DNA of 7,152 nucleotides from a bacterium (GTDB lineage Bacteria; Cyanobacteriota; Vampirovibrionia; Obscuribacterales; Obscuribacteraceae). Under the pieces are notes generated by a model that saw only the letters and a list, made by a program, of their open reading frames with translations, did not search any database and was not told the DNA's origin. The stretch spans positions 1 to 7,152 of the forward strand of contig JAUIJG010000278.1 in the NCBI GenBank assembly GCA_030431355.1, read 5' to 3'. The translations under genes were made by a program, and so were the position numbers. Numbering within the stretch: position 1 is the first letter of the stretch; each line of letters begins with the position of its first letter. This document shows positions 1,909 through 6,495 of this stretch, in pieces.

Positions 1909-2457
1909 ATGGTGGGAAGTTCCATGTTACCAGCAGGTTGGATAAGAACCGGAGCGAAGGAGAGTCGCTATTCGATAGGACTCACCGATGAGTTTCATCA
2001 CTCGGGCGACCAGTCGGCGTATATTATCTGTTCGAACAATGCAAAGGACGGCGGATTCGGGACGCTTATGCAAAGCGTCAAAGCCGCAGGCTACAGAGGT
2101 GGTCCTGTCACTCTGAGTGCTTGGCTAAAAACAGAGGATGTGACTGGATGGGCTGGTCTTTGGTTAAGAGTGGATGGGGACCGATCGCTTAAGAAACCCC
2201 TGCAGTTTGAGAACATGTTTGAGAGAAAAGTCACCGGCACCACCGACTGGACAAAGTACGAGGTGGTATTGCCGGTAGCACCCGAAGCAATGGTAATAAA
2301 CTTCGGAGGCATGCTCTGCGGAGCTGGAAATGCTTATCTTGATGACTTTACACTGCTTGGCACGCCGGATGAAAGCTTGCTTGATTCAAGAGCGGTCACA
2401 TTTGACTTTGATCAATGGGTAAATGATAGTCCTGTGAATATGGACTTTAGTCAATAG
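1909..2457 (+). CDS. Carbohydrate-binding-module-like (galactose-binding fold) protein, cytosolic
   Basis: The protein has 182 residues and no signal peptide or membrane segment. It resembles a beta-sandwich domain often found alone or at the C-terminus of AraC-type and other regulators. Features I recognise are the opening G-W-x-x-x-G (about residues 10-15), 'HSG' (31-33), 'GFGTLMQ' (49-55), 'LSAWLKTEDVTGWAGLWLRVDG' in two pieces (69-80 and 81-90), the core 'GTTDWTKYEVVLPV' (110-123) with its Trp, and 'AYLDDFTLLG' (142-151), the typical final strand ending in a D-D pair. The tail 'SPVNMDF' (174-180) resembles the 'P-x-N-L-D-F' ending common in this group. Here no DNA-binding domain is fused. 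A ligand is not predictable from the sequence, and sugar binding is only a fold-level guess. It ends 17 bp from the stop of the convergent gene on the other strand. Confidence 0.7.
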   Translation: MVGSSMLPAGWIRTGAKESRYSIGLTDEFHHSGDQSAYIICSNNAKDGGFGTLMQSVKAAGYRGGPVTLSAWLKTEDVTGWAGLWLRVDGDRSLKKPLQFENMFERKVTGTTDWTKYEVVLPVAPEAMVINFGGMLCGAGNAYLDDFTLLGTPDESLLDSRAVTFDFDQWVNDSPVNMDFSQ

Positions 2458-2474
2458 AACTAACCCTTCAAACT

Positions 2475-3998
2475 TTAGTCGTCGATGCCTTTGACAAGCT
2501 TTTCCAGGGCATCCAGCTCTTCTAACCTCTTTCTTGCTAAAGCATCCGGATGCAGTCCTTGTTTTCTAAGCTTTTGTCTGGTTATTTCACCTTGCACGTT
2601 TATTCTTAGAGTGTCGATAATTGCAAAAGTGGAAGCCGGCAAGGATATTAGCGACGAGGTGAATAGATTGCTGTTTGTCGCTCTATCGGCACGGTGACCG
2701 GAGGTGTTGAATCTGGGATTGAAGCCGGGAATCATGAAAAGAATTCCACTCGCCACTTTTGTCCCACCTACAAAGGCACCGGCCGCGATGTTCTGGGTGG
2801 CGATCCTTTTAGATTTGTTCAATCCTTTCAGTCCCCGCCTGATTTCGTCTTCGAAGTTCTTTTCAGATAGGGCGTAGATAGATTCGGAACGCTCGATGAA
2901 CTGTTCTATCTTCTCTTGGGGGCATCTTGCTGCCTTGCATGTTTGGGCAAGAATATCCAGATCTTTAGAGAGGGTCTCCAGAGTCTCATTCTCAGCGGTT
3001 TGAGTTGATGGTTTCAACAAGTGTCTTTCACGCATCACTCTGGCTTTAGCATAAAGGCGGCTAACAACTGGACCCAGCATGTAGAGACCGCCGGATATGG
3101 CGAACATGACTCCTGCTCTACCATTTTGAATTCGTTGCTTTCTTGCCAGGGACAGATAAGCAAACTCGTATCCTATGGCGCTGGTTACGTTCTTTGATAT
3201 GTCGAACAGGTACTGCATCTGTTGGAAAGCAAGTAATTTGCTTTTTCCCAGGTAGAACCGCTCGAACTGCTGAAGGGTTTGAGTCAATAGGTCTTCCAGG
3301 ACCTTTTGCTCAGCGGCATCTAGTCTTGCTCTTCCCACTAGTTCTGGTTTCTTCCCTTCTTCTAATACCAGTTTTGCTCGCTGCTCCAGCAGTTTTTCAA
3401 TTTCTTCTCGTTTCTCCTTAATCTTTTTCCGGGCTTTTCTTGGAGAGTAACCCTTTCTAGAGGCTCTATAGGAATGATACTCGTTGAGACCAAATTCGAT
3501 ACCAGCAGCTCCGGCACCAATTATGCTGCCAATCATCGGAATATAGTTGGCTGATTCCTGTGTTTTGACATTTACACTGGATGGGTCGTTTAGTTTACTG
3601 CCACGGTTTGATACTGAAATGATACCGCCAGCGAGACCAAGAGCAGAGTTTGCTTCACCGAAAGCTCCATAACGCCATCCTTTCCATCTGTCCTGAAATC
3701 CAAACAAAAGGTTGTAGTTTATTCCGTATCTCTCCAGATCGAATTCTTTTAATAGAATATCCCTTGTTAATTCATCGATCTTCCTTTCGAAGATTGTATT
3801 GCTAATTGATATTTCCTGCTTCAGGATCGGTGTTTCATCCGTTGCCTTCAATGGATTACTGTCTGTGATATCTGCAAAGACAGGTATCAGTGACTGCGAT
3901 AGAAGGGGGATTGATAGAAGAACGGGTAGTAAGTTAGTGCGCACTGGCGTGATACCCAAAGAAACTGCGTTATTCAGTCGGTAATCATTGCATAACAT
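2475..3998 (-). CDS. Orphan secreted or membrane-associated protein with charged helical and glycine-rich hydrophobic segments
   Basis: I do not recognise this 507-residue protein. The N-terminus has a hydrophobic stretch (about residues 22-39) ending in V-F-A before D, a plausible signal peptide with a long n-region. The remainder alternates long charged, helix-rich stretches (about 180-245, with Lys/Glu-rich heptad-like runs, and 335-400) with glycine/alanine-rich hydrophobic patches near 118-130, 152-168, 295-312, 403-425 and 447-462. These patches could be membrane-inserting hairpins. Two Cys (about 354 and 359) lie in the second charged region. ATG 3998 has GGAG directly abutting it, an unusually short spacing. 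TTG 4004 and GTG 3944 (which would give a compact signal peptide) are alternatives, so the start is uncertain. It is transcribed divergently from the sbtA-like unit and shares its intergenic control region. Confidence 0.75.
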   Translation of the reverse strand: MLCNDYRLNNAVSLGITPVRTNLLPVLLSIPLLSQSLIPVFADITDSNPLKATDETPILKQEISISNTIFERKIDELTRDILLKEFDLERYGINYNLLFGFQDRWKGWRYGAFGEANSALGLAGGIISVSNRGSKLNDPSSVNVKTQESANYIPMIGSIIGAGAAGIEFGLNEYHSYRASRKGYSPRKARKKIKEKREEIEKLLEQRAKLVLEEGKKPELVGRARLDAAEQKVLEDLLTQTLQQFERFYLGKSKLLAFQQMQYLFDISKNVTSAIGYEFAYLSLARKQRIQNGRAGVMFAISGGLYMLGPVVSRLYAKARVMRERHLLKPSTQTAENETLETLSKDLDILAQTCKAARCPQEKIEQFIERSESIYALSEKNFEDEIRRGLKGLNKSKRIATQNIAAGAFVGGTKVASGILFMIPGFNPRFNTSGHRADRATNSNLFTSSLISLPASTFAIIDTLRINVQGEITRQKLRKQGLHPDALARKRLEELDALEKLVKGIDD

Positions 3999-4078
3999 CT
4001 CCAAAAGTCAACTTGCTCTGGAGCAGATGCAGTGGAGACCATAGCATAGAAGATTCTGGACTTGTTTTTTGGTTATAC

Positions 4079-4144
4079 TTCGATCACATTTTCGTTATTA
4101 GTTCGTTGCAAGTTCGTCGCGAACCTATCACAAGTTCATCACAA
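4079..4144. promoter_or_regulatory. Array of six in-phase 11-bp direct repeats (PhoB/OmpR-box-like)
   Basis: Six consecutive 11-bp units can be laid end to end. They begin at 4079 (TTCGATCACAT), 4090 (TTTCGTTATTA), 4101 (GTTCGTTGCAA), 4112 (GTTCGTCGCGA), 4123 (ACCTATCACAA) and 4134 (GTTCATCACAA). Against the last unit, those at 4079 and 4123 match at 7 of 11 positions and those at 4101 and 4112 at 8 of 11. The unit at 4090 matches that at 4101 at 7 of 11. An 11-bp period places each unit on the same face of the helix. It is the spacing of direct-repeat units bound by PhoB/PhoP/OmpR-family response regulators; actinobacterial PHO boxes also use GTTCA-type 11-nt units. The array lies between divergent genes and could control either, most simply the + strand sbtA-like unit. 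The repeats are seen directly; the binding protein is inferred. Confidence 0.6.
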
Positions 4145-4152
4145 CTGGCGAC

Positions 4153-4167
4153 GATAATTGTTATAGA
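4153..4167 (+). promoter_or_regulatory. Candidate -10 elements downstream of the repeat array
   Basis: GATAAT (4153-4158) and TATAGA (4162-4167) are -10-like hexamers 8 and 17 bp after the end of the repeat array, and no good -35 is visible. This is the arrangement expected of an activator-dependent promoter where the regulator replaces the -35 contact. It would give a leader of roughly 30-45 nt before the small ORF. A further hexamer, TATACT at 4074-4079, just before the array is an alternative. All are weak calls. Confidence 0.25.
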
Positions 4168-4206: not shown

Positions 4207-4344
4207 ATGTCAGAGAATATTGAAACCGCTATTGAAGAACTTTTACCTCGTTGTCGTTTTATCTGGTCTGATCCATTTGTAGACTTTTTGATAGGGCTTG
4301 GCGACTTGCATTGTCACCTGAAACCCATAAATGGATTGAGATAA
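4207..4344 (+). CDS. Small ORF (45 aa) translationally coupled to the SbtA-like permease
   Basis: An ATG preceded by GGAG opens a 45-codon frame that ends with TAA at 4342-4344. The last A is the first base of the permease ATG (TAATG), the classic arrangement for translational coupling. The peptide begins MSENIETAIEELLPRC and ends with 'LGDLHCHLKPINGLR'. It is acidic at the start and has a short hydrophobic middle (about residues 23-32) and a Cys/His cluster (H-C-H). It has no clear signal peptide or recognisable domain, and is too short to be the PII-like SbtB. It may be a regulatory leader or a small partner protein, or a chance frame. The precise overlap with the permease start and the usable Shine-Dalgarno argue for it being translated. 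Confidence 0.45.
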   Translation: MSENIETAIEELLPRCRFIWSDPFVDFLIGLGDLHCHLKPINGLR

Positions 4345-6038
4345 TGTCGCTTCATCTATTCTCCAGGCTTTTGGGTCTGGCTTTGATTGTTTTTTGTTTT
4401 ACCGTCGCTCCGGCTGAGTGCAAAGTTGAGCATACTGTGACAGCCCATGCCACCATGGATCAGAATTTTTGTTTGTCCAGAGTTCAGACCGGTTTGTCGC
4501 ACCTTATCTATAGAGACCCGGTTACAAAAGAAGATACTTATTACTCTCTAACACCTTCTGTAAAAGTAGAGTTGAACGGAGATTCCGTCTCTGTTGGTCA
4601 GCTTCAGCCCGGAGATGAACTGAACCTGACTTTTGACGAGGAGAACCATGTTACCAGGGTTACCGCTCTGCGTACTGTGTCCGGTGCGGTTGTTTCCTTG
4701 AACGATAAGCAGTTGGTTTTGACGCCTGATTATCTTAATCGCATGACTTTCAAGATCATGCCTGATTCAGTTTTTAGAAGCAAAAAGAAATCGATAGAGA
4801 TTGGTTCCCTGAAACAAGGAGATCGAGTTACGGTCACCCCCGTGCATGGAAATCAAGTTGGATTGCTGGAGCTGAATTCCGAGAGTCCGCTCACTCAGTT
4901 CTGGCACAATTTGACCAAGAATTTGTTTAAACCACTCCTCCTCTTTTTCTACTTTGGTTTTTTGATCACTCTTTTCAAAGTGCCTTTTGATTTTCCTTAT
5001 GCTGTCTATCAAGGTTTGACCATCTATCTCCTTATTGCTATCGGATGGCATGGCGGAGAGGAACTTGCCTGTCTCTCCAGTGGAAATCTAGTCCAGGCGG
5101 GATTGTTTATGGTCGTGGGATTCTTCACTAACTTTCTTGTTGGATTTATCGCCTTTCAGATATTGAGAAGGAACAGAAAGTTGCGCTCTATAGATGCTGC
5201 CACCGTCGCTGCTTATTATGGCTCCGATTCGGCAGGTACCTTTCTCACCTGTCTTGGCGTTTTGCAGACTGCATCTATCGCTTACGCGGCTTATATGCCT
5301 GTGATGTTGGCCACCATGGAGATTCCTGGATGCTTGCTGGGACTTTTGCTTGTTTCTAAGCTGCGAAAGAGAGGCATGGATGAGAATGGAAATATGCCAG
5401 GGGAGCCGGAGTACAAGGCTGCTGAGAACGGGGAAGATGGAGACCATGCGGAAGAAGATGGCAAAGTGGATGAGTCTGCTGACTCTTCAGAGTCTTCTGC
5501 AAAACTAGAGAGCAGAGAAATATTTAGAGAGATCTTTTTGAATCCTGGATTGTTCTTGCTTATGGGTGGTATCGCCATCGGTTTTATTAGTCGTCTGCAA
5601 GGACCGGCTGCTACTGCGCCGGATGACCAGCTTTTTGTCTCACTCTTTCAGGGAATGTTATGTTTGTTCTTGCTTGAGATGGGAATGAATGCCGCTAAGA
5701 GAATAAGAGACCTTAAAGTTGCCGGTAAGAAGTTCATCGCTTTCGGAATTTTGGCTCCAAATATATTTGCCTCAATAGGCATTGGTGTAGCCAGTATTTT
5801 CAGCCATGCGATTGGACAACCCCTTCAGCTGGGTACTTATGCATTGTTTGCTGTTTTATGCGCTTCTGCTTCGTATATAGCGGTTCCGGCTATCCAAAGG
5901 CTGGCAATCCCGGAAGCCAGTCCGACTTTGCCGCTGGCGGCTTCTCTGGGGCTCACATTTACCTACAATGTGACAATTGGAATCCCGTTGTACATTGTTA
6001 TCGCAGAGACTTGTTTGCGCACATTTCCCGTCATGTAG
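4344..6038 (+). CDS. SbtA-family sodium-dependent bicarbonate permease with periplasmic DUF5666-like N-terminal extension
   Basis: The 564-residue protein has three parts. Residues 1-24 are a signal peptide (hydrophobic LLGLALIVFCF, likely cleaved after V-A-P-A). Residues about 30-180 hold two beta-rich modules, each ending in a G-x-L-x-x-G-D motif ('VGQLQPGDELNL', 'IGSLKQGDRVTV'). The second, starting S-G-A-V-V-S-L, resembles DUF5666. Residues about 195-564 are the SbtA/DUF897 permease in two inverted halves. The first half carries 'AAYYGSDSAGTFLTC' (289-303) and 'YMPVMLATMEIPG' (317-329). The second carries 'LEMGMNAAKRIRDL' (444-457), 'ASASYIAVPAIQRLAIPEASP' (split 507-517 and 518-527) and 'FTYNVTIGIPLYI' (539-551). 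A loop with 16 acidic residues (345-390) separates them. Family members import HCO3- with Na+, and cyanobacterial SbtA is about 370 residues, so the N-terminal 190 residues are extra. ATG 4344 is preferred to TTG 4311 because it starts a clean signal peptide. The substrate is inferred from the family. Confidence 0.88.
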   Translation: MSLHLFSRLLGLALIVFCFTVAPAECKVEHTVTAHATMDQNFCLSRVQTGLSHLIYRDPVTKEDTYYSLTPSVKVELNGDSVSVGQLQPGDELNLTFDEENHVTRVTALRTVSGAVVSLNDKQLVLTPDYLNRMTFKIMPDSVFRSKKKSIEIGSLKQGDRVTVTPVHGNQVGLLELNSESPLTQFWHNLTKNLFKPLLLFFYFGFLITLFKVPFDFPYAVYQGLTIYLLIAIGWHGGEELACLSSGNLVQAGLFMVVGFFTNFLVGFIAFQILRRNRKLRSIDAATVAAYYGSDSAGTFLTCLGVLQTASIAYAAYMPVMLATMEIPGCLLGLLLVSKLRKRGMDENGNMPGEPEYKAAENGEDGDHAEEDGKVDESADSSESSAKLESREIFREIFLNPGLFLLMGGIAIGFISRLQGPAATAPDDQLFVSLFQGMLCLFLLEMGMNAAKRIRDLKVAGKKFIAFGILAPNIFASIGIGVASIFSHAIGQPLQLGTYALFAVLCASASYIAVPAIQRLAIPEASPTLPLAASLGLTFTYNVTIGIPLYIVIAETCLRTFPVM

Positions 6039-6048: not shown

Positions 6049-6495
6049 ATGAAAGTATTGATCGCCGTTGATGGGTCAGAGTGTTCGGAGCAGGCAATAG
6101 ATTTTGTTGCAGGCAATGCCTGGAAAGAAGGATCGAAGTTTCTGGTGATTACGGTTGTGCAGCCTGTGCCCAGAGAGTTTGATTTCTTGCGGAAGTCCAG
6201 CGATGTTTCCGACGAATATATGGAGAAGATTGAGCGCAAAAGCGAGAAGATTGCCAAAGAGGCGGTTAAGAAAATAAGGAAGAAATTGCCTGACTATGAA
6301 GTCGAGTATGTTGTGAAAGTGGGCAGCGCCGCCTCCAAAATTATTCAGGTCGCTAAGTCCTGGCACGCCAATCTTATTGTGGTCGGATCCCATGGACGCA
6401 AGGGGTTCGAGAAAGTTTTTCTTGGCAGTGTTGCGGAGGAGATTATCAAAACTGCTCCCTGCTCGGTGGAAGTGGTGAGAGACTGCGAACATTAG
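6049..6495 (+). CDS. Universal stress protein, UspA superfamily (ATP-binding type)
   Basis: This is a single-domain USP of 148 residues, a typical length. The N-terminal strand 'MKVLIAVDGSE' carries the conserved nucleotide-contacting Asp (D8). The C-terminal part contains 'IVVGSHGRKGFEKVFLGS' (110-127), an exact G-2x-G-9x-G-S motif that marks the ATP-binding subgroup (MJ0577-like) as opposed to the non-binding UspA type. The closing strand 'APCSVEVVR' (136-144) is also typical. A Lys/Glu-rich helix occupies 57-80. The protein should be cytoplasmic and dimeric, binding ATP and possibly signalling energy state. It starts 10 bp after the SbtA-like permease, so it is very probably cotranscribed. 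Stand-alone and transporter-fused USPs are known next to membrane transporters, so a regulatory role on the permease is plausible but inferred. Confidence 0.93.
   Translation: MKVLIAVDGSECSEQAIDFVAGNAWKEGSKFLVITVVQPVPREFDFLRKSSDVSDEYMEKIERKSEKIAKEAVKKIRKKLPDYEVEYVVKVGSAASKIIQVAKSWHANLIVVGSHGRKGFEKVFLGSVAEEIIKTAPCSVEVVRDCEH

Follow-up and report, generated by a model that had tools for sequence, protein, structure and literature searches.

A tandem RTCACA repeat array upstream of an SbtA-like permease gene is a probable operator of an OmpR/PhoB-type two-component system in Obscuribacterales

Introduction

The response regulator PhoP of Mycobacterium tuberculosis binds as a tandem dimer to TCACAGC motifs of 7 bp that are strictly spaced by 4 bp, and tandem, cooperative binding is described for this protein (PMC4832192, in excerpt). 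The PHO boxes of E. coli PhoB and Streptomyces PhoP are likewise built from at least two direct repeats 11 bp apart, with the cores CTGTCAT or GTTCACC (excerpts of PMC4832192). For mycobacterial MtrA a motif GTCACAgcg is mentioned in an excerpt of PMC2945938. In Synechocystis, the LysR-type repressor NdhR/CcmR jointly controls sbtA and Na+-NDH-1 together with CupA (PMC4390856, in part).

Here we describe an array of direct repeats upstream of an sbtA-like gene that has the 11-bp period, the TCACA core and the OmpR/PhoB type of its putative regulator in common with the PhoP box TCACAGC-N4-TCACAGC. It differs from that box in its targets and in length, since PhoP uses a pair of units and the element described here comprises two to six. 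The 11-bp direct repeats are also those of the PHO boxes, whereas the core is RTCACA and no link to pst genes was observed. MtrA shares the core GTCACA, but the target sets are not alike. NdhR offers a suggestive parallel in that it controls sbtA jointly with complex-I-like operons; it is, however, a LysR-type repressor, whereas the regulator linked to the present element is of the OmpR type and comes with a kinase; the complex here is Hyf-like. The order concerned, Obscuribacterales, comprises non-photosynthetic sisters of cyanobacteria. Among the titles and abstract beginnings listed by searches of the open-licence PMC literature, none described the element or the regulon.

Results and Discussion

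The array and its gene context

The window, i.e. the whole 7152-bp stretch of DNA that was analysed, contains six direct-repeat units of the form RTCACA-N5 on the plus strand, all in one 11-bp register. For coordinates of the units and of the neighbouring genes see Table 1. A previous sequence-only reading had described six units in perfect 11-bp register. This description holds for the spacing; in sequence, units 2–4 match the core at only 3, 4 and 4 of 6 positions. The same reading took GTTCA as the core and compared it to actinobacterial PHO boxes, but the conserved part of the repeat is RTCACA and not GTTCACC.

Table 1. Features of the window.
Feature	Position	Strand	Sequence	Remarks
SAF-domain, 286-aa and 182-aa proteins	551–910, 987–1847, 1909–2457			between thioredoxin gene and Div
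Div	2475–4004	-		divergent gene; family of helical proteins specific to the order; name coined here
Array	4083–4148	+		six units RTCACA-N5
Unit 1	4083	+	ATCACATTTTC	exact core
Unit 2	4094	+	GTTATTAGTTC	degenerate
Unit 3	4105	+	GTTGCAAGTTC	degenerate
Unit 4	4116	+	GTCGCGAACCT	degenerate
Unit 5	4127	+	ATCACAAGTTC	exact core
Unit 6	4138	+	ATCACAACTGG	exact core
Promoter-proximal pair of perfect units	4127–4148	+		part agreeing with the order-wide element
Candidate -10 hexamer	4153–4158	+	GATAAT	located as in SulP promoters, at 5–10 of the 11-mer that adjoins the last unit
Possible 44-aa ORF	4207–4341	+		GGAG upstream; stops just before sbtA
SbtA-like permease	4344–6038	+		presumed target; Pfam Sbt_1, residues 197–554, E = 4.9e-97
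Universal stress protein (Usp)	6049–6495	+		10 bp after sbtA; presumed co-transcribed

The array is beyond chance. Exact RTCACA occurs at one register in three of the six units, which none of 2000 shuffles equalled, and the agreement with RTCACA over all six units (29 of 36 positions) was reached by none of 2000 either; for the best three units (16 of 18 core positions) 3 of 2000 shuffles were as good. In a lag-11 scan of the 7152-bp window the array ranked top both at four units (mean pairwise identity 0.61) and at six units (0.53). When the intergenic region was dinucleotide-shuffled 300 times, neither identity was matched, even with periods of 8–14 allowed; the two-unit identity was reached by two of the 300. 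At other periods a few four-unit stretches elsewhere in the window scored equally high (period 5: 0.67), and the array was missed by Tandem Repeats Finder at a score setting of 30. The two perfect units next to the promoter had a two-unit score of 21.3, a value that none of the 798,720 positions reached in an arbitrary 400-kb sample of DNA from the order. The array thus presents at least two same-strand repeats 10–11 bp apart, the arrangement of OmpR/PhoB-type operators. The CRP-like palindrome has the motif TGTGA-N6-TCACA; it was ruled out, because the units of the array are same-strand and not inverted repeats.

The hexamer GATAAT is placed, judged by sequence only, as in a promoter with repeats in place of the -35 element. 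The TG of the extended -10 found in SulP promoters is absent here. The permease downstream, which the sequence-only reading had called SbtA-like, is indeed a true member of the Sbt_1 family, with an additional N-terminal part ahead of the Sbt_1 domain, and is putatively a Na+-dependent bicarbonate transporter; no NCBIfam model matched it. Among relatives, Usp genes adjoin sbtA, SulP and RR-S genes (for RR-S see below). The end of the possible 44-aa ORF and the start of sbtA are arranged as if translationally coupled, and tblastn found no relatives of this ORF among the loci compared.

Every one of the 53 Obscuribacterales genomes carried the Div family, with several copies per genome throughout the order, whereas it was found in none of the 141 genomes drawn from the rest of the class Vampirovibrionia. 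Since the family is confined to this order in our sample, the window very probably belongs to Obscuribacterales. A structure model of Div was all-helical (mean pLDDT 76) and gave no PDB match at E ≤ 0.001, so that nothing on function could be obtained from it. Within the window, no element faces Div. The 286-aa and 182-aa proteins are without a Pfam or NCBIfam match.

A promoter element in Obscuribacterales

Genomes and loci are cited below by our G and L handles. A first search pattern, TTCRTYRCAAGTTCRTYRCAA, took the GTTC spacer for the core and was too weak (17 matches versus 10 in the control). Three RTCACA motifs 11 bp apart, with one mismatch allowed, gave 41 matches in 23 of the 53 genomes of the order, compared to a single match of the reversed pattern. 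Exact three-unit arrays occurred 12 times, in 10 of the 53 genomes. Across the phylum sample, such exact arrays gave seven matches in 6 of 386 genomes and none in the control; among the matches listed, G001 was the sole handle from the order. An element exclusive to the order was rejected on account of these phylum matches. In Obscuribacterales, the combination of (RTCACA-N5)n with a -10 hexamer behind it forms a promoter element that is rare in these genomes.

In seven genomes (G030, G044, G002, G045, G046, G047 and G048) the array has a histidine-kinase gene on one side and a SulP gene on the other. The last unit of most element-bearing SulP promoters is directly followed by an 11-mer such as TTGTTAGATTA, which represents the -10 element with A and T at hexamer positions 2 and 6. 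As this 11-mer abuts the last unit, the repeats occupy the position of a -35 element.

An identity scan found no long lag-11 arrays upstream of sbtA relatives or around Div orthologues. A core-based scan revealed two-unit forms at the orthologues, in the same register as in the window and hardly visible to the lag-11 statistic. Conservation of the register, proposed earlier as a test of the array, thus has a mixed outcome: it is found for the two-unit form, but the six-unit form is unique to the window among the sbtA relatives scanned.

Matrix scans of gene sets

We built a 33-bp matrix covering two units and the -10 11-mer from 14 sites chosen by eye, of which 13 lie upstream of SulP genes and one between a SulP and a CitM-like gene (G053). 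Leave-group-out scores of these training sites ranged from 15.8 to 32.6, and the threshold of 16 bits was picked after the distributions had been seen. Upstream regions were 800 bp long for sbtA, pstS and background genes and 700 bp for Div.

At this threshold a site was present in 6 of 13 sbtA upstream regions of the order, none of which had been used in training. The scores were 36.4 (G036), 25.8 (G027), 24.4 (G007), 22.3 (G008), 21.5 (G035) and 19.3 (G004), followed by 8.6 (G020) and at most 4.4 for the remaining six; partial sbtA matches in G028 and G034 were left unscored. In three of the seven site-poor cases (G001, G003 and one copy in G042), sbtA is separated from any operon promoter by a Usp gene. 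The Div family reached 9 of 30 and SulP 16 of 25, of which 14 hold training sites. Background genes gave 0 of 303 at 16 bits and also at 10 bits. Fisher tests against background yielded 1.3e-9 for sbtA and 1.1e-10 for Div with genomes treated as unrelated. Outside the order, none of 71 sbtA upstream regions reached 16 bits and one scored 10.1. This set comprised the 79 of 80 loci with enough upstream DNA minus eight that were removed as order loci, among them L001, although it is recorded as Planctomycetota. For pstS, 28 loci were scored after omission of the truncated L157 and L178; none reached 16 bits and two reached 10 or more (L167 in G021, 15.0; L164 in G018, 10.8).

The window itself scored 15.9 with the full matrix, just below the threshold, because its -10 11-mer fits poorly; the opposite strand scored -6.8. 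Reversed sequences reached a maximum of 13.5 in 3000 draws of 800 bp. Of the same number of forward draws from Div and pstS loci, 51 scored 16 or more, and the Div loci do contain sites. In 815 kb of loci from the order there were 38 distinct sites, 34 of them intergenic, and none in reversed sequence; as these loci had been picked for the genes and patterns studied, the site density is not that of an average genome. A 400-kb arbitrary sample of the order held one site, within a gene. According to these scans, the arrays are not placed at random genomic sites, which the sequence-only reading would have counted against it, and the direct-repeat operator of OmpR/PhoB type that it had suggested gains support from relatives carrying the element before sbtA, SulP genes and regulator operons.

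The linked regulator and its gene neighbourhoods

The regulator linked to SulP in relatives, RR-S, is of the OmpR/PhoB type with a receiver and a Trans_reg_C domain. We examined its best match in 30 of the 53 genomes of the order. A kinase gene (HK-S) adjoins RR-S in all 30 loci, and the recognition helix, read in all of them except L304, is D(T/S)VRGH(I/V). SulP is adjacent to RR-S in 19 of 30 cases (12 in standard loci, seven from larger stretches). A Usp gene adjoins RR-S in three further genomes, G025, G026 and G027, which are the nearest to the window as judged by the Div gene.

By sequence, the nearest solved relatives of RR-S are DrrD, MtrA, RegX3, a putative regulator (7lz9) and PhoP. 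The six base-contacting residues of M. tuberculosis PhoP (N, V, E, S, Y, Y; PMC4832192, in excerpt) correspond to D, T, R, G, H and R in RR-S. As none of the six is kept, the common TCACA core may be a result of convergence. MtrA is the second-best PDB match, and the helix H and final R occur in both proteins, but RR-S scored 203.6 against the MtrA model with its 300-bit cut-off. TCACA core and 11-bp period are thus those of the PhoP and MtrA boxes, whereas contact residues and family model are not.

In G048 and G044 one operon encodes an RND pump, an adaptor, a P-II-like protein, an OmpR-type regulator and a kinase, followed by the array and SulP; the gene order is the same in G002, G045 and G046. 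A P-II-like gene comes after an RND pump and adaptor in two settings, with and without RR-S/HK-S behind it (L209:8877-13770, L274:6761-11546). The SulP protein had BicA as its best NCBIfam model, at 147.9 far below the cut-off of 880; we regard the SulP proteins here as putative bicarbonate carriers.

In G004 a regulator gene lies directly 3' of sbtA. Its product is 47% identical overall and has the helix DTVRGHINR as in RR-S. Elements were found near the sbtA start (19.3), inside the longest ORF reading, and before the regulator (20.1). The genomes G017, G021 and G051 carry an element before a SulP-RR-HK operon and a second one facing a divergent gene or operon. The products of the divergent G017 operon match the Proton_antipo_M, complex-I 49-kDa and NuoB families; of the G021 operon, similar by eye, the first gene alone is on the contig. 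An element also precedes a similar operon adjoining RR-S in G052. At L318:7618-15024 and L325:7347-14767, complex-I/Hyf-like operons of six genes lie next to RR-S, and a Div-family gene is close by. G038 has an element that faces Div, with Div on one side and SulP-RR-HK on the other, transcribed divergently; this is the layout of the window with SulP replacing SbtA.

Assignment of the array and proposed mechanism

Taken with a probability of roughly 0.68, the array is an operator for RR-S/HK-S that would activate sbtA along with BicA-like SulP genes and, in some genomes, a complex-I/Hyf-like operon. That it serves some regulator as an OmpR/PhoB-type operator is, on its own, very likely. Against RR-S speaks the absence of a 16-bit site from 7 of 13 sbtA and 9 of 25 SulP upstream regions of the order. 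An RR-S paralogue with another signal could use the array instead; the RTCACA core would then be common to a subfamily. The genomes hold many OmpR-type paralogues (up to 55 matches at 1e-50), GTCACAG arrays occur near regulators with the helix EGLRTAIKR, and a long array in G035 with a window-like spacer precedes DUF1800/DUF1501 genes. We nevertheless consider a paralogue unlikely, given that the sbtA promoters of relatives have the ATCACA form with a SulP-type -10 and that the regulator adjoining sbtA in G004 carries the RR-S helix.

Control by phosphate or inorganic carbon had also been suggested from the sequence; the carbon part fits the carbon-uptake-like context, and the phosphate part does not fit the pstS scores. 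A PHO box through which a PhoB-type regulator turns on sbtA at phosphate starvation would account for the 11-bp direct repeats, which resemble those of S. coelicolor (GTTCACC-N4-GTTCACC; PMC4832192, in excerpt), and for the two pstS scores of 15.0 and 10.8. With no pstS site at 16 bits (pstS may sit inside operons, so that the true promoter was possibly missed), no convincing lag-11 array upstream of 29 pstS genes, and a linked regulator that stays under the NCBIfam PhoB cut-off (TIGR02154, 221 versus 296.2 bits), this explanation appears highly improbable. Least credible of all is a chance or decayed tandem repeat without regulatory function. It would explain why the six-unit form is not kept at orthologues, but core and spacing agree with an element conserved at independent promoters, orientation and position are right (the other strand scores negatively), and the shuffles did not reproduce the array.

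Under the preferred assignment to RR-S/HK-S, the order's SulP-linked two-component system and the most likely regulator, an OmpR/PhoB-family response regulator at the array would activate rightward transcription into sbtA-usp. Regulator dimers would occupy the direct repeats in tandem on one helix face, in 11-bp steps. By analogy with M. tuberculosis PhoP, the pair at units 5 and 6 would take the place of the -35 element and recruit polymerase to the -10 hexamer, and the four upstream units would fill cooperatively, leading to a steep response. RR-S would then be expected in the window's own genome, with bicarbonate or Na+ as the presumed signal. Further targets would be the Div-family genes and the BicA-like SulP transporters, joined in some genomes by the complex-I/Hyf-like operon.

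As a more tentative and still doubtful extension, SbtA, BicA-like SulP and the complex-I/Hyf-like operon of Obscuribacterales may form one regulon, in which an OmpR-type two-component system acting via tandem RTCACA arrays takes the role of NdhR in photosynthetic cyanobacteria. If so, each promoter's response would be tuned by the number of units in its array, from two to six, and the window would stand at the steep end. A clade known mainly from metagenome-assembled genomes would gain a concrete regulon, made up of a DNA element, a coherent gene set and a candidate regulator that can be recognised by its helix. Two questions would become amenable to testing: whether a two-component system was once in charge of sensing bicarbonate in the cyanobacterial phylum, and what makes heterotrophic relatives retain two families of Na+/bicarbonate-type transporters.

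Related arrays

Arrays of GTCACAG/GTCACC were observed near OmpR-type regulators with the helix EGLRTAIKR at L189, L206 and L207 (G039, G040 and G004) and probably represent a related box that belongs to a second class of regulators. These few cases suggest that core and recognition helix vary together; counter to this pairing, G053 has the helix EGLRTAIKR near ATCACA-type sites. The four-unit array of G035 (L217:5758-5800) reads ATCACAAGTTC ATCACAACTTC ATCACATGTCC GTCACA, with window-like spacers and nearly the window sequence. It is located upstream of minus-strand DUF1800 and DUF1501 genes, with no transporter, and in view of this array long arrays may serve another regulator.
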